Virus record (IMG/VR): IMGVR_UViG_3300013233_000572
Coordinates: 1-22,391 of that record
Reading direction: 5' to 3' (one strand)
From: a virus
Length of the DNA stretch: 22,391 bases
Shown: positions 1,463 to 22,391 of the stretch, piece after piece
Layout: every line of letters begins with the position of its first letter
Position numbering within the stretch: position 1 is the stretch's first letter
The notes under the pieces: generated by a model
What the model saw: the letters and a program-made list of their open reading frames with translations, nothing else
Databases searched by the model: none
Told to the model about the DNA's origin: nothing
Made by a program: the position numbers and the translations under genes

Positions 1463-1466
1463 GCCT

Positions 1467-1886: not shown

Positions 1887-1898
1887 GATTATCTCCGA

Positions 1899-2258
1899 CT
1901 AAAAATTGACGAACGAAACGGTTTCGCGGCCCCCGGAGGCGGCCTTCATGCGGATGAGGTCGCGGCGTCCGGCGAGGGCCTCGGCGCGAATACGGTCGGC
2001 ACGGGCTTCGGGGACCCCGAAGTCCTCCACCAGGGCGGCGGCCAGCAGTGCGATGAGCGAACCGATCGCAGCGTCTGGGATCGAGGAAGTCGGAAAACCG
2101 ATATCCCCCAGGTGGAAGAGATGATCCAGAAGCCGGGCCAGCGCCTGGGATGCTTGCCGGTCGTCGGATGCGGTGGTGGTGCCTCCGGCATCCGTGACCC
2201 CGATTCGGGTCAGAGCCCCGGCCCTGATGTCGGCCTGAATCGCGGTCTGGGTGGCCAC
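1899..2258 (-). CDS. Head-completion or portal-adaptor candidate
   Basis: A 119-residue, mostly helical protein starting at GTG 2258, three bases after the previous stop. It has the alternating Ala/Leu/Arg composition and the helix SLIALLAAALVEDFGVPEAR, which resembles small head-to-tail connector or tail-accessory proteins that dock under P22-type portals. In many phages a gene of this size sits two or three genes after the major capsid protein, as here. No catalytic motif or membrane segment is visible. The connector call rests on order, size and helical character; it could instead be another structural protein. Confidence 0.6.
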   Translation of the reverse strand: MATQTAIQADIRAGALTRIGVTDAGGTTTASDDRQASQALARLLDHLFHLGDIGFPTSSIPDAAIGSLIALLAAALVEDFGVPEARADRIRAEALAGRRDLIRMKAASGGRETVSFVNF

Positions 2259-2545: not shown

Positions 2546-3625
2546 CTACGCGTCAGCCACACCAGCGGTGAACAGGGTCAGCATGCCGTGGTCCACCAGA
2601 TCGGTGGTGTCACCCACTCCCTTGCCGAAGGTGAGCTTCTCCACCCCACGGATCTCCTGGATGGCGACCCCGTGGCGGAACTTGTAGTCGGTGTCCTGGG
2701 TGGCGGTCTTGGTCCGCTGGGCCCACGCCACGCCGACGGCCTGGGCGCCACAGAAGAAGTTGGGCGCCACGTCGATACCGACGGCCCCCACCCCGGCGAG
2801 GACCGGGATTTCGGGGATTTCGCGGATAATCACGCCGTCCCAGATGAGGTCTCCGCCGGTGAACAGGGGGTTCTTTTTGCCCCGTTCGAGGGCGTCGCGG
2901 TTGGCCTGCATCATGGCGGCGTCGTTCTGGAGATCGCGGAACGCCCGGGAGTTGGCGAACAGCACGAACCACTCCTCATCGCCCTTGGTGATGACCGGGC
3001 GGATGGCGGGGCTGGCGGCCTTGGCCATGCGCTTGGCGAGGGACACCAGCCCTGGAGTGAGGACGTCATTGACGGCATCCACGTTGAGCAACGAGGTGCT
3101 GTGGACCCCGGTATTGTTGACCTTGGCGGCGCCGAACAGAGCCCGATCGGCGTTGTCAACCAGCCACACGTCACGCTGGGCGGCACTGGCGGTGGCGTAG
3201 GCCACGCCATTGATTGACTGCATGGCGGCGATGATCGCATCACGCAGGTTCTTCATGATCCAGTTCTTGAGACGGACCTTGCCCGCGTTGCGCAGGTCGA
3301 TGCCCGTCTTCTGTTGCTCGTTGTCGGTGACAAGAACACCGTGCCGCAGGGTGTCCACGGTGAGCATGTGGGATCGGTTGTCGAGGGCTTCTTCGGACCC
3401 CTCCAGCACGGTGTTACCGGTGACGCCCGTACCCGCCAGTTCATGGATCAGTGACACGGTGAGGCGGTCACCGGGCTTCTTGGTGAGGTTCTCAAGGGTG
3501 TGGATGATGGCGTTTTCATTGCCGTCCATGTAGCGCGAAAAGCGGCTTGCGCGGACGTATTCCTGGAAAAAGTTGTCATCCCACTGGTGGACCTTGAGGC
3601 CCGTTGCGACGGTGGTGTCAGTCAT
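2546..3625 (-). CDS. Major capsid protein, N4-gp56-like
   Basis: A 359-residue protein with the layout of the N4-gp56 family major capsid proteins. It has an N-terminal arm (VHQWDDNFFQEYVRASRF), a segment ending in LTKKPGDRLTVSLIHEL, the conserved GNTVLEGSEEALDNRSH stretch, and a C-terminal part ending near EIRGVEKLTFGKG. It forms the HK97-fold icosahedral shell together with the scaffold encoded just upstream. The start at ATG 3625 is preceded by an AAGGAA ribosome site. It follows the scaffold gene by 48 bases. The length suits the family. This is one of the most secure calls in the window, although the family name is assigned from motif recognition without a profile search. Confidence 0.9.
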   Translation of the reverse strand: MTDTTVATGLKVHQWDDNFFQEYVRASRFSRYMDGNENAIIHTLENLTKKPGDRLTVSLIHELAGTGVTGNTVLEGSEEALDNRSHMLTVDTLRHGVLVTDNEQQKTGIDLRNAGKVRLKNWIMKNLRDAIIAAMQSINGVAYATASAAQRDVWLVDNADRALFGAAKVNNTGVHSTSLLNVDAVNDVLTPGLVSLAKRMAKAASPAIRPVITKGDEEWFVLFANSRAFRDLQNDAAMMQANRDALERGKKNPLFTGGDLIWDGVIIREIPEIPVLAGVGAVGIDVAPNFFCGAQAVGVAWAQRTKTATQDTDYKFRHGVAIQEIRGVEKLTFGKGVGDTTDLVDHGMLTLFTAGVADA

Positions 3626-3673
3626 TTGTCATTTCCTTCTTTTGTGGTTGCCGCCGTCGGTTTGTACCGGGAG

Positions 3674-4417
3674 TCACCCGGCGCTGAGAATCTTGTCGAG
3701 AGGGGTGGGCCTCCACGCGGGCGGTGCTGTCCCGGCGCCAGCGGACGGCACGTCTGAGAGGGTCGGGGCCCCCTCATGGGCCGAATGCGCCCCCTTGGTC
3801 GCGGCCTCGAACCCGGCCTTGTAGGCCGCGTCGGTCGCCTCCTTCAGACTGCCGTTGTGGGGCGCGAGTTCGGTCTGTGCGGCGAGTCGTGCGCCGTGTT
3901 GATAGATCGCCTCGCCGAGGTCTCCGGAGTTAATGATCGCCTGTTCCAGACCGGGATCGGATTCGACAGCCTTCATGACCAGGTTGAACTTCTCGCCGTA
4001 ATCCTCATGAGACATGCGTGCATTCAGCACGCTCACCCTCGCCTCAAGCGCCGCGTTCTGATTTCGCACGAACCCCGCCGGATCGGTCAGCATCTGCTCG
4101 GCAAGATCCTGGGGTTCCTGTTGATCCGGCTGCGGCACCTGGGCGTACTGCAACTGATCGATCAGCGCGGCGTTCTGTCCCTCCAGGGCGGCCAGACGAT
4201 CCATGATCTGCTGGTTGGGATCGGGGGCGGCCTCCGGGGCCGGGTCGGTTACGGGCTCGCCGGGGACTTCCGCAGGATCGCTCTGCGCTTCCTGCGCGGC
4301 CTCCGGGTCGGTCTCCACGGTGGGCTCTGAACCGGTGGGCTCACCCCCACCCTGGCTCAGGATGTCATCCAGCGGCGTCGGCTCGTGGGTCTCGGTCTGC
4401 TCGGTGGTCTCGTCCAT
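3674..4417 (-). CDS. Capsid assembly scaffolding protein
   Basis: A 247-residue, strongly acidic, low-complexity protein located directly between portal and major capsid genes, the standard place for a scaffold. The first 70 residues are Glu/Pro/Asp-rich. They are followed by a coiled-coil-like region (NQQIMDRLAALEGQNAALIDQLQ) and a helical C-terminal half. A motif PTPLDDILSQG near residue 13 recurs as PTPLDKILSAG at the extreme C-terminus. The start at ATG 4417 has a GGAGACGG ribosome site. It would direct capsid-protein assembly and be lost from the mature head. No protease gene is fused or adjacent, so removal by exit rather than cleavage is possible; that is inference. Confidence 0.85.
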   Translation of the reverse strand: MDETTEQTETHEPTPLDDILSQGGGEPTGSEPTVETDPEAAQEAQSDPAEVPGEPVTDPAPEAAPDPNQQIMDRLAALEGQNAALIDQLQYAQVPQPDQQEPQDLAEQMLTDPAGFVRNQNAALEARVSVLNARMSHEDYGEKFNLVMKAVESDPGLEQAIINSGDLGEAIYQHGARLAAQTELAPHNGSLKEATDAAYKAGFEAATKGAHSAHEGAPTLSDVPSAGAGTAPPAWRPTPLDKILSAG

Positions 4418-4426
4418 TTCCGTCTC

Positions 4427-6358
4427 CTAGAATTGTGGTCGATTCGATTCGATGGCGGTCTCGACCTGGATTTTCTGCGCCTCAGCCGCAGCCTTCTGTG
4501 CCGCCGCCATGTCACGCTCCGCCTTGGCCACAAGCGCCTTGATTTCAGCCTGGGCGCCCTGGTCCTTGATTTCCTGATCCTGCTTCTGCCGCTGTTGCCG
4601 GGCCTGTTTGGCCTCCGGCGTCTGCCCCAGCGCATCGCGTATCTGCTTGCTGGCGTCGGACCCAAGGCCGGACGCCGCCACGATCAGCTCCGGTGGGATC
4701 GGCACCCCGGCCCGGGCCAGCTCGGACAGCTTGTCCAGACGCTCACCCTGGAGCGTCACGGTGTCAGGCACGTCGGAGACGATGATGTCCACGTCCAGTT
4801 GTGCCAGATGGTTGTCGGTGGAAACGGTCTGTGACAGCGCCGGATGCCCGGCCAGTTCCGGGGGCACTTCGCCGAATTTCTTTGTCAGCGCTTCCTCAAG
4901 CGTCACCGGGTTGTTCACCTGGATGAATTCAGCGCTCTGTGGATCGTCCGTCACGCGCAACCACCGGGGCCCGGTCCAGACCTGTTTGATGCGGCTCCAC
5001 ATCTTGCGGTAGACGCGATGCTGCCAGGATCGGAGGGCGTCGAATATTGGTCCGGTCTCGGTCTGTCCCCCCTGCTGGCGGGCCTGGATGGCTCTCCCGC
5101 TGGCCCCCGCGTTGGCCTTGCCGGCGAGGGCCGCGTTGGCCCCCACGGCATCGATCTCGCTTTTGGCCTCGGTGAGCAGCTCAAACTGGGCCCGGGCCAT
5201 GTCGCCGGTGGGGAGCATCTCGAAGGCCATGCCGGGGGTGGTCTCGATGAAGCCGTCGGGCCGCGCCAGTTCGCGCCGTGCCCGGTCCACATCTGCCACC
5301 GCCCCCTGCTCGGCCCGCACCTGGCGCACCGAGAGCAGATGCAGTGCCTTGGAGCGGCGTTTGTTGATCTCGTCCTGGATGTCCACCAGCTGCCGCACCG
5401 CCCCGTAGCGCTCACCGTGACGGGTGACGAATGCCACCCCGATCACGTAGGGATCCTGTGGTTTTCCGTCGTCGTCTCGATACGGCGACTCCCGGGGCCC
5501 GTCCAGGATTCCGCCCTTGACGTAGACGGCCTGGAGCATCCGCCCGCCGTCCCGCCACCAGCACTCGATCACCCGTACCCGGCGGCGCTTGGAATCTGAA
5601 AACGGGTCAGGCTTGTCGTCGAACGTGTGGCCGCTACCGCCGCTACCGTTCATCGTGGCCTCGATCACGTCATGTTTCCCTGGCCACCTGCGCTTTGCCT
5701 CGGACAGGTCCATCCAGATCACTTGGCCCCGGTACTTGGCATCGTCCAGGTCGCGGCGCCGGGCGTAGGGATCCACGAACAGGCGGTCCCACGGGATGAG
5801 GTTGATCTTGACCCGGGCATCTTCGCCCTTGCCCTCGGTGACCACCTCGACGGCGCCGGTGCCCTCGATGAGCATGTGCTCGAAGACCTGGGAGCGCACG
5901 TCGTCGAACCGATTGGCGTCCCCCACGAATCGCACCGCCTGGGTGGCCGCCTCGGCGGCCTGTTGGTCGTCGGGATTGCGGTGGAGCAACTTCGGATCGG
6001 TGCGTTTCACCCGCTCCAGTCCCAGCAGAAAATCCACTTTCGGCTTGATGCGGTTGATCACGATGGGGGCCTGACCGCGGGCCTTGAGGGCGGCCTTCTC
6101 GGCCTCGCTCCACTGGTCGCCGTCGTAATAGTCGCGGTCGCGCTCAGCGTGGCGTCGGGCCTCCTCGGTGGCCTCGTCCACCGCAGAAAAAAACCGGATC
6201 AGCATGGCCAGGATGTCCTGGCCCGCCACGGCCTCGGGTTGGATCACGTCACGCGCCACGATCTGCCTCCCCCGCCAGTCGTGGCGAATTGTGCCGCCCA
6301 TCGGTCCCGGGGCGCCCTGTCGCTCGGCAGTCTCGTCACCACCGGTCTGCTCATGCAC
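4427..6358 (-). CDS. Portal protein, P22-like
   Basis: A protein of up to 643 residues with the hallmark segment of P22-type portals: YYDGDQWSEAEKAALKARG followed by QAPIVINRIKPKVDFLLGLE, then the RTDPKLLHRNPDD stretch. The C-terminal 100 residues are a long Gln/Ala/Lys-rich helix or coiled coil (QARQQRQKQDQEIKDQGAQ), as expected for a barrel-like portal extension. The portal forms the dodecameric DNA entry channel at one capsid vertex and docks the terminase. The frame opens at ATG 6358, which overlaps the terminase gene by 115 bases. The ATG at 6301 (MGGTIRHDW) is a plausible alternative start that shortens the overlap to 58 bases. Neither start has a strong ribosome site. Confidence 0.9.
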   Translation of the reverse strand: MHEQTGGDETAERQGAPGPMGGTIRHDWRGRQIVARDVIQPEAVAGQDILAMLIRFFSAVDEATEEARRHAERDRDYYDGDQWSEAEKAALKARGQAPIVINRIKPKVDFLLGLERVKRTDPKLLHRNPDDQQAAEAATQAVRFVGDANRFDDVRSQVFEHMLIEGTGAVEVVTEGKGEDARVKINLIPWDRLFVDPYARRRDLDDAKYRGQVIWMDLSEAKRRWPGKHDVIEATMNGSGGSGHTFDDKPDPFSDSKRRRVRVIECWWRDGGRMLQAVYVKGGILDGPRESPYRDDDGKPQDPYVIGVAFVTRHGERYGAVRQLVDIQDEINKRRSKALHLLSVRQVRAEQGAVADVDRARRELARPDGFIETTPGMAFEMLPTGDMARAQFELLTEAKSEIDAVGANAALAGKANAGASGRAIQARQQGGQTETGPIFDALRSWQHRVYRKMWSRIKQVWTGPRWLRVTDDPQSAEFIQVNNPVTLEEALTKKFGEVPPELAGHPALSQTVSTDNHLAQLDVDIIVSDVPDTVTLQGERLDKLSELARAGVPIPPELIVAASGLGSDASKQIRDALGQTPEAKQARQQRQKQDQEIKDQGAQAEIKALVAKAERDMAAAQKAAAEAQKIQVETAIESNRPQF

Positions 6359-10824: not shown

Positions 10825-11478
10825 CTAGGGTAGGGTACCGGCTAGGGTCAGATCGTGGCTCATGGGCCCCTTAGCGGGCATCCCTTGTGCGCCTCCCAAG
10901 TTGTGCGCCCACCGCACAAACGCTCCGGTATCGATATCCACCACCGCCAGCGCCTTTGACCCGGATATTGCTCGACCGAATTTCTCGGCCCGACCGCAGC
11001 CGTTGGGACACGGCCCGGCGTAGGCATGCCGGGGATTGGTCGGGAGGCGATGAAAAATCACCACCCCATCCCGGCATGGACACTCGCCCTCTACGGCCTC
11101 GTCCACGTCCTTGGCGACCAGGGCGAGTTCATCACACGCTGATTTACCGTCTGCCATAGCCGTAACAATCTCCGCCTTGTAACACCGGCTCGCCGCCACC
11201 TCATGCAGCGACATCTCCGGCTCCGGTGCGGTCTGCCGCTGGTGCTGGGGCTTGGCGTCACCCCCCACCTCGTCCAGCGCTGTCACCATGTCGGCTTGCA
11301 CCGGCAGAGCCCGTATTTTGTGATTGTCCAGCAGGTGGGAGACGGCCCGCTCCCAGGCCCATGCGGGCCACGCCTGGAAACGCCGGTACAGGGCGGCAGT
11401 GAGTTCCGGGCCATAGGACTGGCCGGGGCGGTGGGTCTCCAGGCGATGAATGCCATCCTGAAATTCCTGGATGGTCAT
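10825..11478 (-). CDS. Replication-operon protein with Cys zinc motif
   Basis: A 217-residue protein overlapping the replication-initiation gene as ATGA. The N-terminal 70 residues (MTIQEFQDGIHRLETHRPGQ, then an Ala/Trp/Arg-rich helical part) resemble the opening of phage proteins that accompany O-like initiators. The middle carries CPCRDGVVIFHRLP and further on GPCPNGCGRAEK, four Cys spaced like a zinc ribbon. A role as helicase-loader-like partner or ssDNA-binding accessory is inferred from position next to the initiator; no Walker motif is present, so it is not a DnaC-type ATPase. Confidence 0.75.
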   Translation of the reverse strand: MTIQEFQDGIHRLETHRPGQSYGPELTAALYRRFQAWPAWAWERAVSHLLDNHKIRALPVQADMVTALDEVGGDAKPQHQRQTAPEPEMSLHEVAASRCYKAEIVTAMADGKSACDELALVAKDVDEAVEGECPCRDGVVIFHRLPTNPRHAYAGPCPNGCGRAEKFGRAISGSKALAVVDIDTGAFVRWAHNLGGAQGMPAKGPMSHDLTLAGTLP

Positions 11479-12344
11479 TTTTCAAACTCCTTGAACCAAG
11501 AATTCGAGGTGAGTTCGGACACCGGTTTGCCCCTACCACCCCCACGGTCCTGGGCTCGGTTCAGCCAGCCGATCAAGAATTTACGGACGCCCTTGGCGGT
11601 TTTTCGCCGCTCCGGTGATGCATCGCACCACATGGCCGCCTTCCGCACCTCGCCAATCACGTCCATGCCGGGATAGGTCTCGGCATATCGAGCGATGTCG
11701 TCAGCGGTGACCGAGTGAGATCCGTCCCGGGGAATCAGCGGGATCGAAACGACCGCCACAACGGGGGGGCCGGAGGCAGATTCTTCTGGCTCCGGACAAG
11801 ACGGAGGATCTTCGGAGAGTTCGTCAGAACTCGGAGAAGATCCGGAGTCAAGATCCTGTTCCTGTTCCTGCTCCTGTTCCTGTTCCTGTTCCTGTTCCTG
11901 TTTTCGGCAATGGTTCGCGAATGGTTCCGGCAACGCTTTGGTATACCGTTCCCCATACCCTTCGACAGTGGTTTTAACTCGTTGAAAATGCTTGACCTGC
12001 ATTGGGCATTCTGGAATCAGGTCAACATCGTTGATCCACGACTTCACCACATTCGGGTTGTCGGGTGGGTTGTACTTGAGGAAGTTCGGAACCGCCAAAA
12101 ATGCGGCCGATTCATCATGCTCAATCAACCCTTTCGATAATGGTTCCCGATACCCTTTGGCATACCCTTTCTGGTCCATACCAAGCTCTGCCGCCATTCC
12201 TGGAATCGTGGCCCTCATTGCACCAATCCTGGTCATATTCGGATGCGTCAAAATGAACAGAAAAATAAGTTTCCCATCCCCTGACATGCCCATGAATTTC
12301 GCATCGCTCCAGATCCTGACATCGATCTTCCGGTATCTCGCCAT
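11475..12344 (-). CDS. Phage replication-initiation protein (O-like)
   Basis: A 289-residue protein with a typical phage replisome-organiser N-terminus: ARYRKIDVRIWSDAKFMGMS, then LIFLFILTHPNMTRIGAMRA, a winged-helix domain up to about residue 100 (LKYNPPDNPNVVKSW). The middle is a low-complexity linker with a (QE)n run at 149-165 and a Ser/Glu/Pro-rich stretch. The C-terminal domain (residues 210-289) is helical with Trp/Arg-rich segments. In lambda O the initiator gene contains the origin in the equivalent linker; here the DNA encoding the linker carries hexamer repeats and a large inverted repeat. The gene's A of ATG is shared with the upstream stop (TGATG). Confidence 0.85.
   Translation of the reverse strand: MARYRKIDVRIWSDAKFMGMSGDGKLIFLFILTHPNMTRIGAMRATIPGMAAELGMDQKGYAKGYREPLSKGLIEHDESAAFLAVPNFLKYNPPDNPNVVKSWINDVDLIPECPMQVKHFQRVKTTVEGYGERYTKALPEPFANHCRKQEQEQEQEQEQEQEQDLDSGSSPSSDELSEDPPSCPEPEESASGPPVVAVVSIPLIPRDGSHSVTADDIARYAETYPGMDVIGEVRKAAMWCDASPERRKTAKGVRKFLIGWLNRAQDRGGGRGKPVSELTSNSWFKEFEK
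11806..11843. repeat. Interrupted inverted repeat in the initiator gene
   Basis: GGATCTTC-GGA-GAGTTC-GTCA-GAACTC-GGA-GAAGATCC: two nested perfect arms (8 and 6 bases) with a symmetrical GGA/GGA internal mismatch and a 4-base loop. It lies ten bases from the hexamer array. It may be part of a replication origin. Confidence 0.65.
11854..11901. repeat. Eight tandem TCCTGT hexamers (candidate iterons)
   Basis: Eight head-to-tail 6-base units, seven identical and one (11866-11871) TCCTGC. On the coding strand they encode the Gln-Glu repeat of the initiator. Either a slippage-prone microsatellite or initiator-binding repeats of an origin; the nearby inverted repeat and position inside the initiator gene favour the second. 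Confidence 0.8.
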
Positions 12345-13319: not shown

Positions 13320-13520
13320 TCAGGCCGTCTTCTGGCCTGGGACCGATCCCGGGTTCATTTTCGCTGCGGATATGCGGCCACTTGTCAGCCGCTCGATCTG
13401 CAACGCCCGCAACGGCGGGATGACTTTCCACTGGTACACCGCCTGGGTACTCACACCCAGTGCCTTTGCCATCTCGGCCATGCCGCCGAACTCGTCCGCG
13501 ATTTGCTTGATGCTCATCAT
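13320..13520 (-). CDS. Cro/YdaS-like helix-turn-helix repressor
   Basis: A 66-residue DNA-binding protein: a helix-turn-helix (FGGMAEMAKALGVSTQAVYQ, with WKVIPPLRALQIERL after it) in the form seen in YdaS/Cro-type antirepressors. It is divergent from the CI-like repressor gene and starts the early replication operon. It would compete at the operators in the 13530-13566 region and favour lytic growth. ATG codons at 13520 and 13517 are both possible. There is no ribosome site, and the predicted transcript start coincides with the ATG, so the message may be leaderless. Confidence 0.88.
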   Translation of the reverse strand: MMSIKQIADEFGGMAEMAKALGVSTQAVYQWKVIPPLRALQIERLTSGRISAAKMNPGSVPGQKTA

Positions 13521-13527
13521 GCCGGAG

Positions 13528-13556
13528 ATTCAAGCACACTTGATAAATGGTGTCAA
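13528..13556 (-). promoter_or_regulatory. Early leftward promoter (cro-like operon)
   Basis: Minus strand: TTGACA (13556-13551), 17-base spacer, TTGAAT (13533-13528) preceded by TGC (extended -10). The operator at 13553-13566 overlaps the -35 and the one at 13530-13543 overlaps the -10. The architecture matches the promoter at 15497. Confidence 0.85.
13530..13543. promoter_or_regulatory. CI-type operator, TCAAGCACACTTGA
   Basis: A perfect 5-base inverted repeat (TCAAG/CTTGA) with a 4-base centre, covering the -10 of the cro-like promoter. One of four related sites in the window. Confidence 0.85.
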
Positions 13557-13566
13557 GGATGCTTGC
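13553..13566. promoter_or_regulatory. CI-type operator, TCAAGGATGCTTGC
   Basis: The same motif with one mismatch in the last base, covering the -35 of the cro-like promoter. Centre-to-centre distance to its partner is 23 bases, about two helical turns. It lies 27 bases upstream of the repressor's start and may also affect the repressor's own expression. Confidence 0.8.
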
Positions 13567-13593
13567 CGGGTTTTGTTTTATGGTGGAGCCATC

Positions 13594-14307
13594 ATGACAA
13601 GTACTCTTGCAGAGCGGATGAAAGAGATTCGCGATGAAACGGGAAAAACGCAGGCGGATCTCGCCCGCGACGTCGGCGTCAGACCCCAGGCCATCAGCCA
13701 GTGGGAAAATGGCGAGACCAAATCACTCAAGGGCATGAACCTCTTGAAATTGGCCTCCGCCACAGGATTCAGCGAGCGGTGGATCGCTCATGGCGTCGGT
13801 CCGAAAAAAACCGGAAACAGCGCATCTGGTACATTCTCCGGTCTCACCGGATCGGGTTATGGGGCCACCGCCCCCCCAACAGGATCTGCGGGTGGCCTCA
13901 GGGGCCTCGGCCACGAACCGATCCGTCGTGTCCCGGTCATCTCCTGGGTCCAGGCCGGGCAGTGGCAGGAGGTCGTAGACGCATTCCAGCCGGGAGGCTC
14001 AGACGATTGGGTCTACACGGCCAAAAACATCGGCAACAGATCGTTTGCACTGCGGATTCACGGCACCAGCATGGAGCCGCAGGTGCCCGACGGATCGGTC
14101 GTCATAGTTGACCCGGATAAGGAGGCGACCAACGGATCCCTGGTGGTGGTGCGCCTCGACGATGATCAGGAGGCCACCTTCAAGCGCCTGGTCATCGATG
14201 GGAGCCGCCGACTGCTGGAGCCGCTGAATCCGCGTTACCCGGTCATGGAGATCACCGGCCCCGCCACCATATGCGGCGTGGCATGCCAGGTGGTCATCGA
14301 TTTATGA
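13594..14307 (+). CDS. CI/LexA-like lysogeny repressor (S24 self-cleaving)
   Basis: A 237-residue repressor. Residues 1-65 are a Cro/CI-type helix-turn-helix (MTSTLAERMKEIRDETGKTQ, ADLARDVGVRPQAISQWENG). A Gly/Ser/Thr linker follows. From about residue 110 comes an S24 peptidase domain with the Ala121-Gly122 cleavage site (SWVQAGQW), catalytic Ser159 (HGTSMEP) and Lys197 (EATFKRL). RecA-stimulated self-cleavage and SOS induction are therefore expected. The frame is open from 13309, but ATG 13594 is chosen: it has a GGTGGAG ribosome site five bases upstream and gives a normal N-terminus. Its likely targets are the four TCAAG-N4-CTTGA sites. Confidence 0.95.
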   Translation: MTSTLAERMKEIRDETGKTQADLARDVGVRPQAISQWENGETKSLKGMNLLKLASATGFSERWIAHGVGPKKTGNSASGTFSGLTGSGYGATAPPTGSAGGLRGLGHEPIRRVPVISWVQAGQWQEVVDAFQPGGSDDWVYTAKNIGNRSFALRIHGTSMEPQVPDGSVVIVDPDKEATNGSLVVVRLDDDQEATFKRLVIDGSRRLLEPLNPRYPVMEITGPATICGVACQVVIDL

Positions 14308-14822
14308 GCGAGGGCACGCCCATGGCGCGGACATCCTACAAGCCTTTCATGGCCCTGTCACTGCTGCTGATGGGGCTTTCGATGGTCTCTCCGGCATGGG
14401 GTGATGAGCCGCGCAAGCCGATGAGCCTCGAACGCGCCCAATGGATGATGGCGCCGTTTGGAAGTGAAAAAACAGGCAAGGAGCCAATCACTCTGGATCA
14501 GCAGGAGGCAGTTGAAGAAGGAATTCAGGCACTTGATGCGATAAATCAGATGCGCATAACCATGGAGGCAATGATTGAGTATCACGAAAATGAGTTTCAA
14601 TCCGTATGCCTCAAGGCCATCGGGCATTCTGGACTGTGTGCCTGTCTGGAGAGGCTGACGCCTACCGTGGTCGGGTTTGTAGTGTATGCACAGATCGTAA
14701 CCTCTACCCGAGACAAATTGGGCTACGAAAACCTGGGCGCGGATGGCAAGGCTCTCGTAGATACCACCCGTGCCGCCCGTGATGCCTGTGTGGCCGAGGT
14801 GTGGAGAGAATCGGAACCATAG
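14304..14822 (+). CDS. Secreted Cys-containing protein, lysogenic-conversion candidate
   Basis: Overlaps the repressor stop as ATGA at 14304. An ATG at 14322 with an AGGG ribosome site is the alternative start. From 14322 the N-terminus is a clear Sec signal peptide: positive MARTSYK, hydrophobic core FMALSLLLMGLSMV, and a likely cut after PAWG. The mature part is about 145 residues with four Cys, three of them in SVCLKAIGHSGLCACLERL and one in ARDACVAE. Because it sits directly behind the repressor and in the same direction, it should be expressed in lysogens. A role in the periplasm, for example superinfection exclusion or host fitness, is inferred. I do not recognise a named family. Confidence 0.8.
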   Translation: MSEGTPMARTSYKPFMALSLLLMGLSMVSPAWGDEPRKPMSLERAQWMMAPFGSEKTGKEPITLDQQEAVEEGIQALDAINQMRITMEAMIEYHENEFQSVCLKAIGHSGLCACLERLTPTVVGFVVYAQIVTSTRDKLGYENLGADGKALVDTTRAARDACVAEVWRESEP

Positions 14823-14843
14823 TCAAACCCAAAGGAGACAGAC

Positions 14844-15215
14844 ATGAAAAAACACCAAATCCTGATGGCGGTGGCCATCCTGATCGCATCTGCATGGGTT
14901 GGGATCCCGGCGGCTGATGCCGGTGACACCTACGTCAACGGGTATTTCCGCGCCAACGGCACCTATGTCCAGCCCCACTACCGGTCGGCCCCCAATCGAA
15001 GCCGGTTGGACAACTACTCCACGCGGGGCAACCTCAACCCCTACACCGGCAGGCAGGGCACCGTGAACCCGTATTCAGGCGCCCGCACATATCAGGGGTC
15101 TGGATCAGACCTCCAAGGATTGGACGGCCTACAGGGACTGGAAGGTCTCCAAGGCCTGGATGGGTTGCTGGGGCTCGATAGTCTGGAACGAGAACTCATC
15201 TTCGGTGACCCCTGA
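14844..15215 (+). CDS. Small secreted protein with Gly/Leu repeat tail
   Basis: Starts at ATG 14844 with an AAGGAG ribosome site seven bases upstream. A signal peptide (MKKHQILMAVAILIASAW) is followed by probable cleavage after ADA. The mature part has a module found in many small secreted bacterial proteins: TYVNGYFRANGTYVQPHYRS, then NYSTRGNLNPYTGR and VNPYSG. The last 40 residues are a repetitive GLDGLQGLEGLQGLDGLLGL run. Second gene of the lysogenic transcript. The tail repeats may form an extended or amyloid-like strand. Function is unknown, but export from the cytoplasm is well supported. Confidence 0.85.
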   Translation: MKKHQILMAVAILIASAWVGIPAADAGDTYVNGYFRANGTYVQPHYRSAPNRSRLDNYSTRGNLNPYTGRQGTVNPYSGARTYQGSGSDLQGLDGLQGLEGLQGLDGLLGLDSLERELIFGDP

Positions 15216-15235
15216 CAACGACTTGCAAAGGGCTA

Positions 15236-15277
15236 TATGAGTAACTCGGACAGAAGAAAAATTTCGAGTTACTCATA
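15236..15277. repeat. 13-base inverted repeat after the lysogenic genes
   Basis: TATGAGTAACTCG (15236-15248) and CGAGTTACTCATA (15265-15277) are exact reverse complements with a 16-base, A-rich loop. It lies 21 bases after the stop at 15215. It could end transcription of the repressor operon, although no T run follows, or act as a protein or RNA element. Confidence 0.65.
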
Positions 15278-15278
15278 G
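15237..15278 (+). CDS. Possible 13-residue micro-frame inside the inverted repeat
   Basis: ATG 15237 to TAG 15278 reads MSNSDRRKISSYS, exactly framed by the inverted repeat, with an AAAGGG sequence five bases upstream as a possible ribosome site. If folded, the hairpin would hide the start codon. This is listed as a possibility only; the match between frame and repeat could be coincidence. Confidence 0.2.
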   Translation: MSNSDRRKISSYS

Positions 15279-15364
15279 ACCAGAATCCTTTGATGTGCTA
15301 GGAGTGCGGCATAGACCTGCCCCCCCCACCCATCCACATCCCCGCTCGCATCGATGAGCCCGCA

Positions 15365-15380
15365 CGGACACCTGTGTCCG
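15365..15380. repeat. Short perfect palindrome CGGACAC-CT-GTGTCCG
   Basis: Seven-base arms with a 2-base centre. It stands alone in the intergenic region without an adjacent T run. A protein-binding site is possible; no other copy was noticed. Confidence 0.4.
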
Positions 15381-15486
15381 GCGTACCCAGCGCCAGCCAC
15401 CGCCCAGAACCACACCACACCCATCCCCTGACCTAACCGAATAGATGTCGCAGTCTGTGACGTCATGCGGTGGTGAAAGAAAAATA

Positions 15487-15500
15487 TCAAGCACGCTTGA
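15487..15500. promoter_or_regulatory. CI-type operator, TCAAGCACGCTTGA
   Basis: A perfect TCAAG-N4-CTTGA site overlapping the -35 of the recombination/integration promoter. It has the same arms as the sites beside the repressor gene. Confidence 0.85.
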
Positions 15501-15526
15501 CACGCAAACATCAAGTATGCTTGAAT
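15497..15526 (+). promoter_or_regulatory. Early rightward promoter (recombination/integration operon)
   Basis: TTGACA (15497-15502), 18-base spacer, TTGAAT (15521-15526) preceded by TGC. The -35, -10 and both operators line up with the cro-like promoter with a one-base gap. Transcription would start near 15533, leaving a leader of about 80 bases before the first gene. Confidence 0.8.
15511..15524. promoter_or_regulatory. CI-type operator, TCAAGTATGCTTGA
   Basis: The second perfect site, overlapping the -10. Centre-to-centre distance to its partner is 24 bases, one more than at the cro-like promoter. Confidence 0.85.
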
Positions 15527-15614: not shown

Positions 15615-15938
15615 ATGAGCAAGACGAGTCATGTGACGATTGGACCATGGCGAGTTGAAGAGCGATGGCAACGGGACCCGGATATTTACATCGTGGCAGA
15701 TAGCCCGGATGGCACGGTGATCGCTCACATCAGGACGCAGGATATCCGACACGTCCACCTCATCGCCGTCGCGCCGGAGTTGCTGGAAGCGCTGATCGAC
15801 CTTGAGGATGCCGCAAGCGGCTTGGAGGCAGAGATTGACGATGCAGGTGACGACCGGTTGCCAAGCGGCTGCGACACCAGAGGCGCACTCATTGCCGCCC
15901 GCCGCGCCATTGCAAAAGCCACCGGAAAGGAGCACTGA
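15615..15938 (+). CDS. First gene of recombination operon, unknown
   Basis: A 107-residue protein with a very good ribosome site (AGGAGG, seven bases before ATG 15615). It begins SKTSHVTIGPWRVEERWQRD and has a C-terminal helical part with HLIAVAPELLEALIDLEDAA, a pattern common in small phage proteins (PELLEAL-x-x-L). A small beta domain followed by a helix is likely. No catalytic residues are evident. Being first under the repressor-controlled promoter, it is expressed early after induction. Function is unknown. Confidence 0.85.
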   Translation: MSKTSHVTIGPWRVEERWQRDPDIYIVADSPDGTVIAHIRTQDIRHVHLIAVAPELLEALIDLEDAASGLEAEIDDAGDDRLPSGCDTRGALIAARRAIAKATGKEH

Positions 15939-15940
15939 CG

Positions 15941-16363
15941 ATGACCACCGAGACCCACACCATCACCGAATCCATCATCCGAGGCACCACCCTGAAAAAG
16001 GCCCTCGCATGCCTCACCGAGGTCTGTGACACCCACGACGATAACCGTGCGCACGGCCCGGCCCCGTTGTTCCCGGAGACCTACAACACCCGGCTCCACC
16101 TGGACGATGTGTATCGCCTCATGCGGGCCGTTATGTGCGCCATGGAGACCGCCACGCTCCAGCAGACCACTGATCCCATCTATCGGGAGGTATACGACCT
16201 GCTGGGCCGCCTGGAGGAGCCCATCAACGCCCTGGACGAGGCGGTGGAATTGGGCACTCTGGGCGAGCCGGATACCGACGGTGAGGATCCCGCCGCCGAG
16301 GCATCCGCATGGATCGACAGCACCGAGGTGGCATGCCAGCGCAGTGATCGGGGGGGATCCTAA
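15941..16363 (+). CDS. Unknown 140-residue acidic protein
   Basis: Starts at ATG 15941, two bases after the previous stop, with a GGAAAGGAG ribosome site. The product is largely helical and acidic (YDLLGRLEEPINALDEAVEL), with scattered Cys (KALACLTEVCDTHDD) and no membrane segment. Its stop shares one base with the exonuclease start (TAATG), so the two are likely coupled. A helper of the recombination genes is suggested by position only. Confidence 0.8.
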   Translation: MTTETHTITESIIRGTTLKKALACLTEVCDTHDDNRAHGPAPLFPETYNTRLHLDDVYRLMRAVMCAMETATLQQTTDPIYREVYDLLGRLEEPINALDEAVELGTLGEPDTDGEDPAAEASAWIDSTEVACQRSDRGGS

Positions 16364-17325
16364 TGACCGCAACCATTTCCAAATCGGAAACGGTTCAATC
16401 CGACCGCGCCGAATGGCTTGAGGCCCGCCGCCAAGGCATCGGCGGATCGGACGCCGCCGCAGTCATGGGCCTGTCGCCCTACAAATCGGCCTATGAACTG
16501 TGGCTTGAGAAGCGCGGTGAACTCCAGGAAGAAGACCTGTCCGACAACGAGGCGGTCCATTTCGGGACCGTTCTGGAGGATGTTGTGGCCACCGAATACG
16601 CCCGCCGCACGGGCCGCAAGGTGTCCCGCGTGAACTGTATCCTCCAGCACCCGGAGCATCCCTACATGCTCGCCAACCTGGATCGCCGTGTGGTGGGTGA
16701 GCGCCGGATTCTAGAGTGCAAAACGGCGGATCGATTCACCCTGCCCATGTGGGGTGAGGCGGGGACCGATCAGGTGCCGGACCACTACCACCTCCAGGTG
16801 ACCCATTACATGGCCGTAACCGGGGCCGAGGTGGCCGATCTTGCGGTCCTCATCGGTGGCAACGAGTTCCGCATCTATACGATTGAGCGGGATCAGGAAC
16901 TGATCGATATGGTCTACGACCAGGAGGCTGAATTCTGGCGCATGGTCCAGGACGGAGGCCCCCCCGACGTGGACGGCTCCGCCGCGACCAGTGCCCTGCT
17001 CAAACGCCTCTACCCGTCCAGCACCGGTGCCCGGATTGACCTGCCGGGTGATGGTGGTGCATGGGTCGAAAAGTTACGCGAAGCCAAGCAGGACGTGGAA
17101 TGGGCGACATCCCGCCTGGACGAGGCCAAGCACCGCATCCAGGTACTTGCTGGTGAGGCGTCGGAAATTTTCGTGGGGGACCGATTGGTAGCCACATGGC
17201 GCCAATCGAAGGACCGTAGCGCATTCGATCAGGCCGCATTCAAATCCGCCCATCCAGACCTGTTCAAGCAGTTTTCAGCGGCCCGCCCGGGGCCTCGGAC
17301 ATTCCTCATCAAGAAGGGAAAATGA
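16363..17325 (+). CDS. YqaJ-type phage exonuclease
   Basis: A 320-residue PD-(D/E)XK nuclease of the YqaJ/lambda Exo group. It has the characteristic opening WLEARRQGIGGSDAAAVMGL with SPYKSAYELWLEKRG, the second motif HFGTVLEDVVATEYARRTGR, the catalytic Asp in YMLANLDRR, the Glu-x-Lys pair in ILECKTA, and the following Gln/His helix YHLQVTHYMAVTG. It degrades one strand of double-stranded ends to leave 3' overhangs for the RecT-like partner encoded directly downstream. The two genes overlap as ATGA. A C-terminal helical extension of about 100 residues (WVEKLREAKQDVEWATSRLD) is additional to the core and may contact the annealing protein. Confidence 0.92.
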   Translation: MTATISKSETVQSDRAEWLEARRQGIGGSDAAAVMGLSPYKSAYELWLEKRGELQEEDLSDNEAVHFGTVLEDVVATEYARRTGRKVSRVNCILQHPEHPYMLANLDRRVVGERRILECKTADRFTLPMWGEAGTDQVPDHYHLQVTHYMAVTGAEVADLAVLIGGNEFRIYTIERDQELIDMVYDQEAEFWRMVQDGGPPDVDGSAATSALLKRLYPSSTGARIDLPGDGGAWVEKLREAKQDVEWATSRLDEAKHRIQVLAGEASEIFVGDRLVATWRQSKDRSAFDQAAFKSAHPDLFKQFSAARPGPRTFLIKKGK

Positions 17326-18182
17326 CCATGACATCGCTTATCACAATGCCTGCGGAAACCGAGACATCAACGACTTCGGGACTCAGCTTTCAGGGCATCC
17401 AGCCCAAGAACTTGGAAGAAGCCCTGAAAATCTGCGAGATGATCGCCAACAGCGGGATCGTCCCGAAGCACTACGCGGGTCGCACGGAGGCTGTTTTCAC
17501 GGCGGCCATGTACGGCGCCAGACTAGGCATGGACCCCATGACCGCATGCCAATCCATCGCCGTCATCAACGGTCGCCCCTGCATTTTCGGGGATGCGCTC
17601 CTGGGTATCGTGCGGGCGTCTGGGAAGCTCGAATATATCCACGAGGATGACAACGGCACCGAGGCCGTTTGCACCGTCAAGCGCGTTGGGGATGCATCCC
17701 CAAACGTGCGGAAATTCTCCAACGAGGACGCCAAACGTGCCGGGCTCATCAACAAGCCCGGGCCGTGGAAGGATTACCCGTCCCGCATGCGCCAGATGCG
17801 GGCTCGCGCCTTCGCCCTGCGCGATACCTTCACCGACATCCTCATGGGGTTCTCCGTCACCGAGGAGGCCCGGGACATCCCCCCGGATCAGGACACCCAC
17901 CGGGTGAATGTCATCACCACACAGGATGCCACCGGCTCCCGTGCCGACCGCATCAAGGGCAAGTTGTCCGCACCGGCCCCCGAACCCGCCCCGACCGACG
18001 ACTTCCCGAGCCCCATCGAAGCCGCCATAGCGGTGTTCAAACAGACCATCGATGAGGCCGCGACGGGTGATGACCTGGACCGCATCGGAGATGACATCAA
18101 GAGCGCCCCGAAAACCGTGCGGGACGCGCTACGTGGCCATTTCAGCAACCGCCGCCGGGCGTTGTCCGAGGCTGGAAACTGA
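17322..18182 (+). CDS. RecT-like single-strand annealing protein
   Basis: A 286-residue protein. The core runs from about residue 20 to 190: FQGIQPKNLEEALKICEMIA, then AMYGARLGMDPMTACQSIAV, INGRPCIFGDALLGIVRASG and later PSRMRQMRARAFALRDTFTD. These are the landmarks of RecT-type annealing proteins. It would anneal the 3' strands made by the YqaJ nuclease. The C-terminal 80 residues are a Pro-rich linker plus a small helical domain (DDFPSPIEAAIAVFKQTIDE), as often seen. The start overlaps the exonuclease stop (ATGA); the second ATG at 17328 is less favoured. Confidence 0.9.
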   Translation: MTMTSLITMPAETETSTTSGLSFQGIQPKNLEEALKICEMIANSGIVPKHYAGRTEAVFTAAMYGARLGMDPMTACQSIAVINGRPCIFGDALLGIVRASGKLEYIHEDDNGTEAVCTVKRVGDASPNVRKFSNEDAKRAGLINKPGPWKDYPSRMRQMRARAFALRDTFTDILMGFSVTEEARDIPPDQDTHRVNVITTQDATGSRADRIKGKLSAPAPEPAPTDDFPSPIEAAIAVFKQTIDEAATGDDLDRIGDDIKSAPKTVRDALRGHFSNRRRALSEAGN

Positions 18183-18559: not shown

Positions 18560-18792
18560 CCATGTTCCTCACCCCCGATGAGCTGGCCGACCTGACCGAC
18601 TACAAGCGGTCGGCATGCCAAGCGAGGTGGCTGTCTGATCGTGGCATCCCGTTCGCCACGGGTAGATCGGGGCGCCCCAAAGTGCTACGGTCCATCATCA
18701 TGGAGCGCCTGGGCGGCACCCTGACGCCAGTACCCATCGGCCCGGACATCATGGCCCTGGAGACGGAATTACAGCGACGTGGGGCGGCATAG
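18556..18792 (+). CDS. DUF4224 protein, integrase partner
   Basis: A 78-residue protein with the whole DUF4224 pattern: MFLTPDELADLTDYKRSACQ, ARWLSDRGIPFATGRSGRPK and VLRSIIMERLG. The domain is predicted to be a small winged-helix-like DNA-binding fold. It is repeatedly found directly before phage tyrosine integrases, which makes it a candidate excision or directionality factor; that role is inference. Start options are GTG 18556 (overlapping the mini-gene stop as GTGA) and ATG 18562. The end overlaps the integrase gene by 14 bases. No other excisionase gene is visible near the integrase. Confidence 0.88.
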   Translation: MTMFLTPDELADLTDYKRSACQARWLSDRGIPFATGRSGRPKVLRSIIMERLGGTLTPVPIGPDIMALETELQRRGAA

Positions 18793-19765
18793 AACCAAAG
18801 ACAGACACCTGCCTCCGAGGGTCTATCTCAACCACGGGGCCTACTACTACGTGTCCGGCGGCAGGTGGACCCGCCTCTCCGCCGACCTTGCCGAGGCCAA
18901 GGCCAAATGGGCCGATATCGAAGGGGTCCAGGTGGCCCCCCCGGGCACCATGGCCGCCCTGATCGCCCGATACCTCGAAGAGGTCACCCCCGGCAAAGCG
19001 CCTAAAACCCAGCGAAACGAGCGCAATCAGGCCGCCCTCATTTCCGCGTTTTTCGGCCCCATGGTGCCCGGCGATGTTCGGCCCATGCACGTCGCCCAGT
19101 ACACCGACAGGCGGGGAAAATCCGCACCGGTGGCGGCAAACCGAGAAAAAAGCCTCCTGTCCCACATTTTTACCGTGGCCATGCGGTGGGGCATTGTGGA
19201 CACCAACCCATGCCGGGGGGTGCGCCGACATCGTGAGACCCCCAGATCCCGCTACGTGACCGACGCGGAGTTTCGGACGGTGTGGGAGGGTGGGAACCAG
19301 ACCATTCGGGATGCCATGGACCTGTCGTACCTGACCGCCCAGCGGATCGGAGATGTGCTCAAGATGAGCCTACGAGACGACCACGGCGACACGCTCCAGG
19401 TGACCCAGGGCAAAACCGGTGCACGGATATCGATCCAGGTGACCCCTGCGCTACGGACCGTCCTGGACCGGTGCAGAGCCCGGGGGTCGATCCGGGGCAT
19501 GACCCTCCTGCACGGGAGGGGTGGCGCCCCGTACACATACGATGGATTTTCCACGATGTGGGGGAGGGCGATGAGAAAATCGGGCGTGGACCGATTTACA
19601 TTCCACGACCTCCGCGCCAAGGCCCTGACCGACCTGGAGCGGGCCGGAGTTCCCAGGCCTGACATACAGGCCCTTGCCGGGCATGCATCGGGGGTCATGA
19701 CAGAGCGGTACATCAGGGCCCGTGAGGTGGTCAAGGCGACCGCCCTGACCCGCGCCATCGGGTGA
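18779..19765 (+). CDS. int: Tyrosine integrase
   Basis: A 328-residue site-specific recombinase. The N-terminal 50 residues (RHRTKDRHLPPRVYLNHGAY) form the small arm-binding domain, residues 55-150 the core-binding domain, and residues 155-328 the catalytic domain. All catalytic residues are present: Arg189 (TAQRIGD), Lys212 (TQGKTG), His276 and Arg279 (FHDLR), His302 (LAGHAS) and Tyr311 (MTERYIRA). It would recombine the adjacent attP with a host tRNA-Lys gene. It starts at GTG 18779 inside the DUF4224 gene. It is the last gene of the repressor-controlled rightward operon. Confidence 0.95.
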   Translation: MGRHRTKDRHLPPRVYLNHGAYYYVSGGRWTRLSADLAEAKAKWADIEGVQVAPPGTMAALIARYLEEVTPGKAPKTQRNERNQAALISAFFGPMVPGDVRPMHVAQYTDRRGKSAPVAANREKSLLSHIFTVAMRWGIVDTNPCRGVRRHRETPRSRYVTDAEFRTVWEGGNQTIRDAMDLSYLTAQRIGDVLKMSLRDDHGDTLQVTQGKTGARISIQVTPALRTVLDRCRARGSIRGMTLLHGRGGAPYTYDGFSTMWGRAMRKSGVDRFTFHDLRAKALTDLERAGVPRPDIQALAGHASGVMTERYIRAREVVKATALTRAIG

Positions 19766-19778: not shown

Positions 19779-19845
19779 TCGCCTAATATAATCCGTAATT
19801 GATGCGTTAAGAGGCGCGACTTTCGCCGCAACCCCTTGATTTGTT

Positions 19846-19890
19846 TGGTGGGCCGTGTAGGGATCGAACCTACGACCCGCTGATTAAGAG
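19846..19890 (-). other. attP core: 3' part of tRNA-Lys(CTT), incomplete tRNA
   Basis: On the minus strand this reads from the anticodon loop (CTCTTAA, anticodon CTT) through the 3' anticodon-stem strand, variable loop GGGTC, a perfect T arm (GTAGG-TTCGATC-CCTAC), acceptor strand ACGGCCC, A and CCA. Upstream (19891-19895 and beyond) the sequence cannot form the anticodon stem or D arm, so the gene is incomplete. Identity with the host thus likely begins in the anticodon loop, and integration would restore the host tRNA. Confidence 0.9.
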
Positions 19891-19947
19891 GCTGCGGCTC
19901 ATATTTACCGCATGTAATTGATTTGAAACAAAACAAGCGCATTCGAT

Positions 19948-20076: not shown

Positions 20077-20298
20077 ATGGCAATCGAATTCGACAAGTCA
20101 GAGGCAAAGGATCGCGGCATCATGCTCGCCATCATGCTCGGCGGGATGGGCATGCTGCAGAATCACTGGGACGTGTCAATCGGCCTGATGGGCGCCGCTA
20201 TCGGCTACGTAATGGGGTATGTGGGAGGCGGATTCAGCGCGCCGATCTGGAAGCGGCGGGCGATGCGTCTGGAAGAGGCCGCACGTTCTCGCCGCTGA
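20077..20298 (+). CDS. Small two-span membrane protein
   Basis: A 73-residue frame from ATG 20077. After a charged start (MAIEFDKSEAKDRG) come two hydrophobic segments, IMLAIMLGGMGML and SIGLMGAAIGYVMGYVGGGF, and a basic C-terminus (WKRRAMRLEEAARSRR). The layout is compatible with a small holin-like or membrane accessory protein. No ribosome site is clear, and the last 65 bases overlap the converging virion gene, which lowers confidence. It stands alone between attP and the late operon's end. Confidence 0.45.
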   Translation: MAIEFDKSEAKDRGIMLAIMLGGMGMLQNHWDVSIGLMGAAIGYVMGYVGGGFSAPIWKRRAMRLEEAARSRR

Positions 20299-22381
20299 CC
20301 GCGTCGGACCCGTAGCGCGTCGCCAGGAACGTTGACGCCAGGATCGCCCGTTGCGAGTTGGCAGGAAGCGTGGCCACCGTAATGAGCGCTTGGCGCCCCT
20401 CTCGCGTCGTCATGGCCTTCGCCAACCGCCCAGGTAGCAGGACGGTGGTAGCAGTCCTTCCAAGCGTCAACGGGTTCAGCGTGAACAGGCCCCGTGCCGC
20501 GTTGAACGCGATCATGAGCCCCGCCGTCGGGCTCCCCTCGGTGCGACCACGATCCGCCACCCGTTCCAGCGCCTTCGACACCTTCAGCACCTGGGTGCGC
20601 TCCGGTCCCTCATCGAACAGGGCCACGAACCGCTTCATGTTTTTTCCCAGGAAGGTGTTGAACTTCGCCGGGGAGAACGGGGTGCCGCTGGAAATTTTCT
20701 GGGATGATGACGGGGCGGACGCATCCAGCATGTTTTGCAGGAACAGCCGACGCGTGGCCTGGAGCGCCTCAGGGTCCTGCTTGCCGATGATCTTCACCGT
20801 AGTCCTCATGGCGCTCGGATTGAGCCCTAGCACCTTCTTTGCGACGTCCTCTGGGTCCGTGGGGAACTTGCCGTTGAACAGCCGCCCCAGGGCCGTCTTG
20901 CCCAGCTGGTCGATGGACTCGGAATCGCGGGCGTACTGGCGCCGGGCGATTTTGAGCGCGTCCCCGGCGTCGCCACCGATTATTTTTGCGGTCGCGTCGA
21001 TGTCGGACAGAAGGGCGTTCTTCAGCCGCCCCGCGATCATGCGGCTTTGCGCCTTGTCGATATCTGCGAACAATTGACCTTTACCCCTCGCGGCGTCACC
21101 GTAGATCTGCAACAGTCGCTGGGTGCGGTTCACGGTCAGGCGCTGGGCGGAAGCCCGGGAGCCTTCCGACAGCATTGCATCCCGACCAAATTGGTCCACC
21201 AGCTTCGGCGCTGCGGTCCCCGCTTCGCGCACCCGTCCGGCCACATCGTTTCTCAATGCACGGGCCTTTCCCACGATGACGGCGGCGGCGTCACCAGCGC
21301 CCGGCACATCGAATTCCGCGATGACCTTGTCCACCTCGCCCAGCAAACTGTTCGGCGTCACCACGGGCCGCCCGCCGGATAGCGCCCGCGCCTTTCCAAA
21401 CGTCACCGAAGCTCGTGCAGAGCGGATCCGCACCGCCTTGTCCACGGCCCCCTTGAATGTGGTCTCCAGCGCCGTTCCCGTCTCGATGTCCCCCAGGCCG
21501 CGCCGATCCACACGGTCCAGCACTCTGCCCAGAACCTTCGTGGCACTGTTCAACTGCGACTGATCGAAGGCAGCCACCTGATCGGCGCTCCCGGGTAGTA
21601 CCCGCGCCAGCCCCTCCATGCCAAGTTGCGCCCGGGAGCCCGAAAGTTGCCCGGGGGAGAACTGGATCCCGGTATCCCGGGACAGCGCCGTCCCTTCCTG
21701 CGCGAAGGGGGATTGCTGGGATCTCTGCACCGACCGCGCCACCAGGTTCTTGGGGTTGGCGCGCCCCACAAATGCCATGCCGCCCTTGATGCCTGCCGGG
21801 ATCGCTGCATCGACCGCCACACGCCCCACGCGCTGTACCAATTCACTACCACCACCCTGTGGGAAGTCGGTGCCCGGCAACAGCCCGCTCAACGCCTGGC
21901 GCAGCACCCCGCCCGCAGCCCCTGCGGCGGCAACCCCGGCAAACGTGGGAGAGGCAAGCACAGCGGGCCCTGCCTCGATGGCCGGTCCAACCAGACCGAG
22001 AATTCCTTCCCTGAAGATCTCAAATTTCCCGGTCTGGCTGTTTCGCACTGCGATCCGCCCGTCCGGCGTGGTGCCCACGTTGCCCCTGCCGAAGCGTGAT
22101 TCCAGGAAAGACACCCGGCCCTCCGGGGTCACTTTCACGCTGGCCAGCGCCCGATCCAGGAGAGACGGCTTGCCGGTGTCGCCCGGAATGGTCCCGGTCA
22201 CGGTGTCGCGGCGTGGGTCTGCGAGCCGCTGTGGCGTTCCACCTCCAGGGTCGGCCTGAATCGTCACGGGGTTCCGTGCGCGGCGAACGGATTCGATCTG
22301 GCCGATTGTAGGGACCAGACTTTCAAAGTCGTTGGTTTGCGTATCACCAACATTCGGTATAAGGCGCTCGAAGTCGTTCAC
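20234..22381 (-). CDS. Large internal virion or DNA-ejection protein candidate
   Basis: A 715-residue, Ala/Arg/Gly-rich, largely helical protein read leftward, ending just before attP. It opens with a duplicated short motif (NDFERLIPNVG, NDFESLVPTIG), then has a conserved-looking segment VTPEGRVSFLESRFGRGNVG with TTPDGRIAVRNSQTGKFEIF, a Gly/Ala hydrophobic stretch at about residues 130-170, and long helical regions. This profile is typical of large podovirus virion proteins that are ejected with the DNA. The call of ejection protein is by analogy. GTG 22381 is the first start in view, but the frame is open to the window edge, so the true start may lie outside. Confidence 0.7.
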   Translation of the reverse strand: MNDFERLIPNVGDTQTNDFESLVPTIGQIESVRRARNPVTIQADPGGGTPQRLADPRRDTVTGTIPGDTGKPSLLDRALASVKVTPEGRVSFLESRFGRGNVGTTPDGRIAVRNSQTGKFEIFREGILGLVGPAIEAGPAVLASPTFAGVAAAGAAGGVLRQALSGLLPGTDFPQGGGSELVQRVGRVAVDAAIPAGIKGGMAFVGRANPKNLVARSVQRSQQSPFAQEGTALSRDTGIQFSPGQLSGSRAQLGMEGLARVLPGSADQVAAFDQSQLNSATKVLGRVLDRVDRRGLGDIETGTALETTFKGAVDKAVRIRSARASVTFGKARALSGGRPVVTPNSLLGEVDKVIAEFDVPGAGDAAAVIVGKARALRNDVAGRVREAGTAAPKLVDQFGRDAMLSEGSRASAQRLTVNRTQRLLQIYGDAARGKGQLFADIDKAQSRMIAGRLKNALLSDIDATAKIIGGDAGDALKIARRQYARDSESIDQLGKTALGRLFNGKFPTDPEDVAKKVLGLNPSAMRTTVKIIGKQDPEALQATRRLFLQNMLDASAPSSSQKISSGTPFSPAKFNTFLGKNMKRFVALFDEGPERTQVLKVSKALERVADRGRTEGSPTAGLMIAFNAARGLFTLNPLTLGRTATTVLLPGRLAKAMTTREGRQALITVATLPANSQRAILASTFLATRYGSDAVSGENVRPLPDASPAASRSAR

Positions 22382-22391
22382 CGTTATAACC

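Follow-up and report, generated by a model that had tools for sequence, protein, structure and literature searches.

Genes of the region

The DNA analysed here, referred to below as the window, is a virus record of 22,391 bases (IMGVR_UViG_3300013233_000572). It carries a cI repressor gene (13594..14307, plus strand), the 237-aa product of which combines an HTH with an S24/LexA-type domain (HTH_3, 5.7e-13; Peptidase_S24, 3.2e-26; PHROG 4, 4e-52). The protein is 36-38% identical to the C2/CI repressors of P22- and 21-like phages; its N-terminal part matches the structures of the 434 repressor and P22 C2, and the closest PDB structure to its C-terminal part is that of lambda CI. The predicted A120-G121 cleavage site, together with S159 and K197, falls at the LexA/CI site and dyad positions. 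With its N-terminal HTH, S24 domain, Ala-Gly pair and Ser/Lys dyad, the protein thus appears to have the architecture of a self-cleaving repressor of the P22 C2/LexA type.

Divergent from cI, and separated from it by operators, lies a cro gene (13323..13520, minus strand), which encodes a 66-aa member of the P22_Cro family (P22_Cro, 3.4e-18; YdaS, 5.4e-15; PHROG 409/35, transcriptional regulators) and heads the leftward early operon. Leftward of cro this operon contains a DnaD-like helicase loader or replication initiation protein (11478..12344, minus strand; PHROG 1701, 2.8e-20) and a Holliday junction resolvase, followed by terminase, portal and head genes. In the other direction, cI is followed by two genes for putative secreted proteins, whose signal-peptide-like starts were judged by eye. 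The first (14322..14822, plus strand), in what would be the lysogeny-expressed slot, has no Pfam/PHROG family match; the second (14844..15215, plus strand) falls in PHROG 29674, a family of unknown function, and has a counterpart at the same position in IMG/VR record 3300048091_000096. Beyond them, a second promoter precedes a rightward operon that opens with two small genes (15615..16363, plus strand; the first is PHROG 1273, of unknown function) and continues, on the same strand, with a YqaJ/RecE-type exonuclease (16363..17325; YqaJ, 1.5e-44; PHROG 434, 5.7e-109), a RecT-like annealing protein (17322..18182; PHROG 561, 1.2e-51) and a tyrosine integrase (18779..19765; Phage_integrase, 8.2e-18; PHROG 1, 8.5e-54). 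The repressor and the two putative secreted-protein genes thus lie between the two promoters, as a preliminary description of this DNA had it. Among the window proteins scanned against Pfam and PHROG, none matched the N family of antiterminators.

Downstream of the integrase gene, at about 19840-19895 on the minus strand, the sequence CTCTTAATCAGCGGGTCGTAGGTTCGATCCCTACACGGCCCACCA is the 3' portion of a gene for a tRNA (probably tRNA-Lys) and likely the attP site; ARAGORN identified no complete tRNA in the window. The remainder of the record includes a long open frame (20234-22391, minus strand; 718 aa, truncated at the end of the record) with no Pfam/PHROG match, whose product is possibly a virion or DNA-ejection protein.

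Two promoters with paired operators

The early leftward, pR-like promoter (13528..13556, minus strand) consists of TTGACA (13556-13551) and TTGAAT (13533-13528) separated by a 17-bp spacer, and the pL-like promoter (15497..15526, plus strand) of TTGACA (15497-15502) and TTGAAT (15521-15526) separated by 18 bp. The former reads GCAAGCATCC-TTGACA-CCATTTATCAAGTGTGC-TTGAAT on the minus strand, and its geometry is the same in relatives; the latter reads TCAAGCACGC-TTGACA-CGCAAACATCAAGTATGC-TTGAAT on the plus strand. These are the positions that had been assigned to the two promoters preliminarily. The TGC noted earlier in front of the -10 is present at both, where it belongs to an operator (xTGC-TTGA) and at the same time forms a TGn extended -10. 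In neither -10 hexamer is position 2 the usual A, and a consensus promoter scan consequently omits both promoters. The pRM promoter of cI was sought in the window and could not be placed.

At each promoter there are two 14-bp palindromes, whose final TTGA coincides with that of the -35 hexamer in one case and with that of the -10 in the other. The OR1-like operator TCAAGCACACTTGA (13530..13543) covers the -10 of pR and the OR2-like operator TCAAGGATGCTTGC (13553..13566) its -35; correspondingly, the OL2-like operator TCAAGCACGCTTGA (15487..15500) covers the -35 of pL and the OL1-like operator TCAAGTATGCTTGA (15511..15524) its -10. The motif TCAAG-N4-CTTGA, originally ascribed to all four, is exact at three of them; the site at 13553-13566 reads GCAAG-CATC-CTTGA on the minus strand, one base off. 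The centre-to-centre distance between operators is 23 bp at pR and 24 bp at pL. This one-base shift equals the difference in spacer length (17 versus 18), so that the overlap of operators and hexamers is unchanged. A candidate weak fifth operator, ACAAGTACTCTTGC (13597..13610), falls within cI codons 2-6.

The likeness of the two blocks, described earlier as extending over some 40 bases with a single-base gap, amounts to 32 identical positions of 39 plus the one-base gap, with the same ordering of operators and hexamers, and had been taken as a sign that an operator-promoter block was duplicated. When the pR block is compared with the rest of the window, pL scores 49 and the next-best match 28. 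The identity nevertheless stops at the functional core, since the 40-bp flanks agree at only 10 and 12 of 40 positions, which is the level of chance, and most of the identical bases are fixed by the operator and promoter consensus. Moreover, both clusters are already present in the relatives described below, so any duplication would be old. As nothing outside the core is shared and the relatives have both sets, we consider the copying of a block within this lineage unlikely; selection by a single repressor for one operator sequence on standard promoters is enough to account for the likeness.

Frequency of the operator motif

In the search that had been proposed for the motif, three exact copies of TCAAG-N4-CTTGA were found in the 22.4-kb record, compared to 0.01 expected, and four copies with at most one mismatch, compared to 0.35; none of 100 shuffled sequences reached three or four, respectively. 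With two mismatches allowed, the count (8 versus 5.6 expected in the window) is no longer unusual, and the additional sites are dispersed, except for 13597-13610 in the first cI codons. A weight matrix based solely on the sites of the relatives gives the four operators its highest scores in the window (27.3, 24.6, 23.9 and 11.7 bits); random sequence attains 11.7 bits 0.135 times per window length on average. The 13597 site comes fifth, its 6.55 bits lying within chance (mean null maximum, 8.2 bits). The matrix was built from sites already within one mismatch of the motif given in the preliminary description and hence confirms the ranking rather than the discovery of the motif.

A terminator-like prediction overlaps 15491-15505, and the inverted repeats might in principle be chance or terminator-like structures to which no regulatory protein binds. 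Their stems are short, however, and overlap promoter hexamers; together with the three exact copies against 0.01 expected, and a two-cluster layout that is kept in five other records, this makes such an origin highly improbable.

As controls, the whole genomes of lambda and P22 were examined. They contain two and one sites, respectively, with at most one mismatch, which are scattered, and none of these is at their operators. TCAAG-N4-CTTGA is thus an operator specificity of its own.

The motif in other viral records

In five other viral records the motif likewise flanks the cI segment on both sides. Three of them (G003, G001 and G002) were retrieved when viral contigs were searched for pairs of motif copies spaced like operators, and were therefore selected for one motif pair, though not for the presence or the position of a second cluster; the other two (G005 and G006) were found through the Cro protein, using a three-member Cro alignment, without use of the motif. 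In the relatives of 44-53 kb, 14 of the 15 sites with at most one mismatch fall in the two clusters. The motif is accordingly confined to the two promoters both in the window and in its relatives, as had been anticipated.

In G001 (44.1 kb) all five sites belong to the two clusters, at 31327 and 31371 between cro and cI and at 32924, 32947 and 32969 beyond cI and the two genes that follow it. Downstream of the OL of G001 lie RecT, a RecE-like exonuclease, excisionase and integrase, and the content of this operon is therefore common to G001 and the window. In G002 (46.8 kb) the five sites form two clusters 2.5 kb apart around cI, and in G003 (6.4 kb) the four sites form two pairs, which flank a short repressor together with two small genes. 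G005 (53.5 kb) has four of its five sites in a two-plus-two arrangement, with one further site at 10240, and G006 (5.4 kb) has one site at each end. The relatives possess two or three operators per set.

The repressors vary more than the operators among these phages, as judged from their sequences. Those of G001 and G002 are S24 proteins with other recognition helices. Those of G003, G005 and G006 are short (about 114-118 aa) and consist of a cI-like HTH with no S24 domain; these short HTH-only repressors, associated with the same motif, are located at 5461-5814 of locus L008, 7582-7926 of L122 and 960-1316 of L123. Since three relatives share the motif and lack S24, cleavage is not a general feature of switches with this type of operator.

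Examination of the recognition helices bears on which of the two regulators the sites serve. The Cro helices are alike (QAV-QW) in three motif-sharing phages, whose CI proteins differ more, and one might propose that the sites are primarily operators of the YdaS-like Cro, with CI acting elsewhere or weakly. Against this, the window CI and the G005 repressor have PQA[IV]-QW in common in their recognition helices, and the presence of a pair at the distant pL, with the spacing of 23/24 bp, fits cooperative CI dimers. In lambda and P22, furthermore, both CI/C2 and Cro use the same operators. We thus regard a primary role for Cro as rather improbable and favour the use of the sites by both proteins. 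The helix reads RPQAISQW in the window CI versus SNVAISQW in P22 C2, and we infer that the changed residues may account for the change from TT to TC in the operator.

A query with the single Cro sequence yielded no relatives. The three-member alignment yielded 23, most of which have related but different operators, for example of the TAAAG-N5-CTTGA type, and the idea that the motif is universal for the Cro family was rejected on that account. The operator is absent from Pseudomonas phage F_TK1718sp/PAK and Xanthomonas phage PBR31, which have a similar Cro. An unbiased scan of bacterial genomes for the operator pair produced 81 stretches, which belong to scattered phyla and vary in spacing; none encodes a close relative of the window CI or Cro, and the pattern of the pair alone was therefore discarded as a diagnostic.

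Arrays of the motif occur in other contexts. IMG/VR record 3300028048_000061 carries a terminal tandem array of the motif and was set aside as apparently unrelated. The end of a 155-kb viral contig (L011; G004:C1:11-283) contains ten exact TCAAGTAAACTTGA palindromes and one mismatched copy, with spacing alternating between 22, 25 and 37 bp. In Bacteroidales contigs (L079, 3292-3512; L091, 197-279) this palindrome is repeated in tandem at intervals of exactly 23 bp. In a further locus, found via the secreted protein (L135, around 2900-4600), a similar operator-promoter core lies at both ends of a segment composed of an S24 repressor and a secreted protein. Its operator is different (AAAC-N4-GTTT type) and overlaps the same hexamers, so that the geometry is more general than TCAAG-N4-CTTGA.

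Comparison with lambda, P22 and N15

The order and directions of the elements in the window are the same as in lambda, in mirror image. In the lambda record, OR1-3 are at 37998, 37974 and 37951 and OL1-3 at 35591, 35615 and 35635, with cI, rexA and rexB between OR and OL and with gam, bet, exo, xis and int downstream of OL. As in lambda, the operators lie over the -35 and -10 hexamers (OR1-OR2 and OL1-OL2 spacing is 24 bp in lambda, 23 and 24 in the window), the integrase and recombination genes are under pL and the replication genes under pR, and lysogeny genes are inserted between cI and OL. The differences concern the operator (14-bp TCAAG-N4-CTTGA versus 17 bp), the number of operators per region (two clear sites versus three), the cargo (two putative secreted-protein genes versus rexAB) and the recombination genes (YqaJ/RecT versus exo/bet).

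The P22 record shows a lambda-like order, with erf and int downstream of OL and three operators on each side. The window resembles P22 in the P22_Cro family of its cro and in the operator core AAG-N4-CTT, which is shared with the TTAAG-N4-CTTAA of P22, the outer bases being TC/GA in the window and TT/AA in P22. P22 has no genes between c2 and OL, where the window has two. The lambda-like pL/pR layout perceived at the outset thus agrees with both annotated records. The placement of integration under the second promoter, in contrast, had been viewed as a departure from lambda; this was mistaken, as int, xis, exo and bet are downstream of OL/pL in lambda, and P22 likewise has int and erf there.

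The immB region of N15 and phiKO2 is also a cro/repressor switch with operators, two in number, at a distant second promoter (PMC4997575). Like the window, these phages have an operator pair at that position; they differ in their 16-bp T-A-N10-T-A operators, in the control of repA by the distant pair, and in the repressor CB, which lacks self-cleavage residues.

Taken as a whole, the region is very probably an immunity region of the lambda/P22 type that uses an operator sequence of its own. This explanation is based on the sequence, the protein families, the gene order, the enrichment of the motif and the two-cluster layout kept in relatives. The divergent cI and cro enclose operators, a second set of the same specificity is located at pL beyond cI, and recombination/integration and replication genes follow pL and pR, respectively. 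Three operators per set, as in lambda and P22, are not seen, there being two clear sites each; this is not decisive, as the number varies among the relatives. The paired switch is thus real and conserved, yet an ordinary lambda-type one with a different operator "password". Our understanding of the switch itself is unchanged, but the recurrence of the geometry in uncultivated phages extends the lambda OL/OR design beyond enterobacterial phages, with differences in password and repressor architecture. An identical palindrome over the -35 and -10 at both ends of a cI segment provides a rule for finding immunity groups, and the same rule locates the lysogeny-cargo slot in metagenomic phages.

Proposed regulation

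The preliminary proposal of coordinated CI control stands insofar as one predicted specificity occurs at both promoters, with replication genes under one and recombination/integration genes under the other; binding by CI and Cro, promoter activity and cleavage are predicted from the sequences. In the lysogen, CI dimers would occupy the two OR operators (13530 and 13553) and the two OL operators (15487 and 15511). Because each pair covers a -35 and a -10, CI would silence pR, with cro and the replication genes, as well as pL, with the genes for recombination and integration. Rightward transcription of cI would also carry the two putative secreted-protein genes, as that of lambda cI carries rexAB. 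Upon DNA damage, self-cleavage of CI would release both promoters, after which Cro produced from pR would occupy the same operators and keep CI off.

In lambda, a CI octamer on OR1-2/OL1-2 can loop 2.3 kb, although the loop is not strongly favoured when the third operators are missing (PMC3708714); three operators in each of the two sets are reported to be better than two (PMC5880393). OR and OL are about 1.96 kb apart in the window, and by analogy CI looping between them is possible; it would be expected to be weaker, given only two clear operators per set.

The lysogeny cargo slot

The region between cI and N in lambdoid phages is a diversity hotspot, which harbours rexAB in lambda and bstA in BTP1 (PMC8585504). 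The corresponding slot of G002 holds a BstA-family defence gene, and this homologue, like the putative secreted proteins of the window, would by analogy fit the cI-N slot. Tentatively, and with less than even confidence, TCAAG-N4-CTTGA may define a distinct specificity group of phages that combine self-cleaving S24 or short HTH-only repressors, acting on one common layout with two or three operators per end, with exchangeable cargo between cI and OL. If so, the putative secreted proteins of the window would be superinfection-exclusion or lysogenic-conversion factors.

The family of the 14844-15215 product was considered as a general marker of the cI-OL slot and rejected as such, since an S24-type repressor is detectable in the 3 kb upstream at only 13 of the 61 viral loci with PHROG 29674. 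It is represented in 61 viral contigs (L124-L184) and is nearly absent from named phage records. The product itself is a small, putatively secreted, Tyr-rich protein with the pattern VNGY...GTYVQPH...NYST.GN.NPYTG. In IMG/VR record 3300046513_000276 (L098), from a related phage, the position between cI and OL is occupied by a BstA-family abortive-infection protein (1187-1957, minus strand; PHROG 6287, 1.3e-58).
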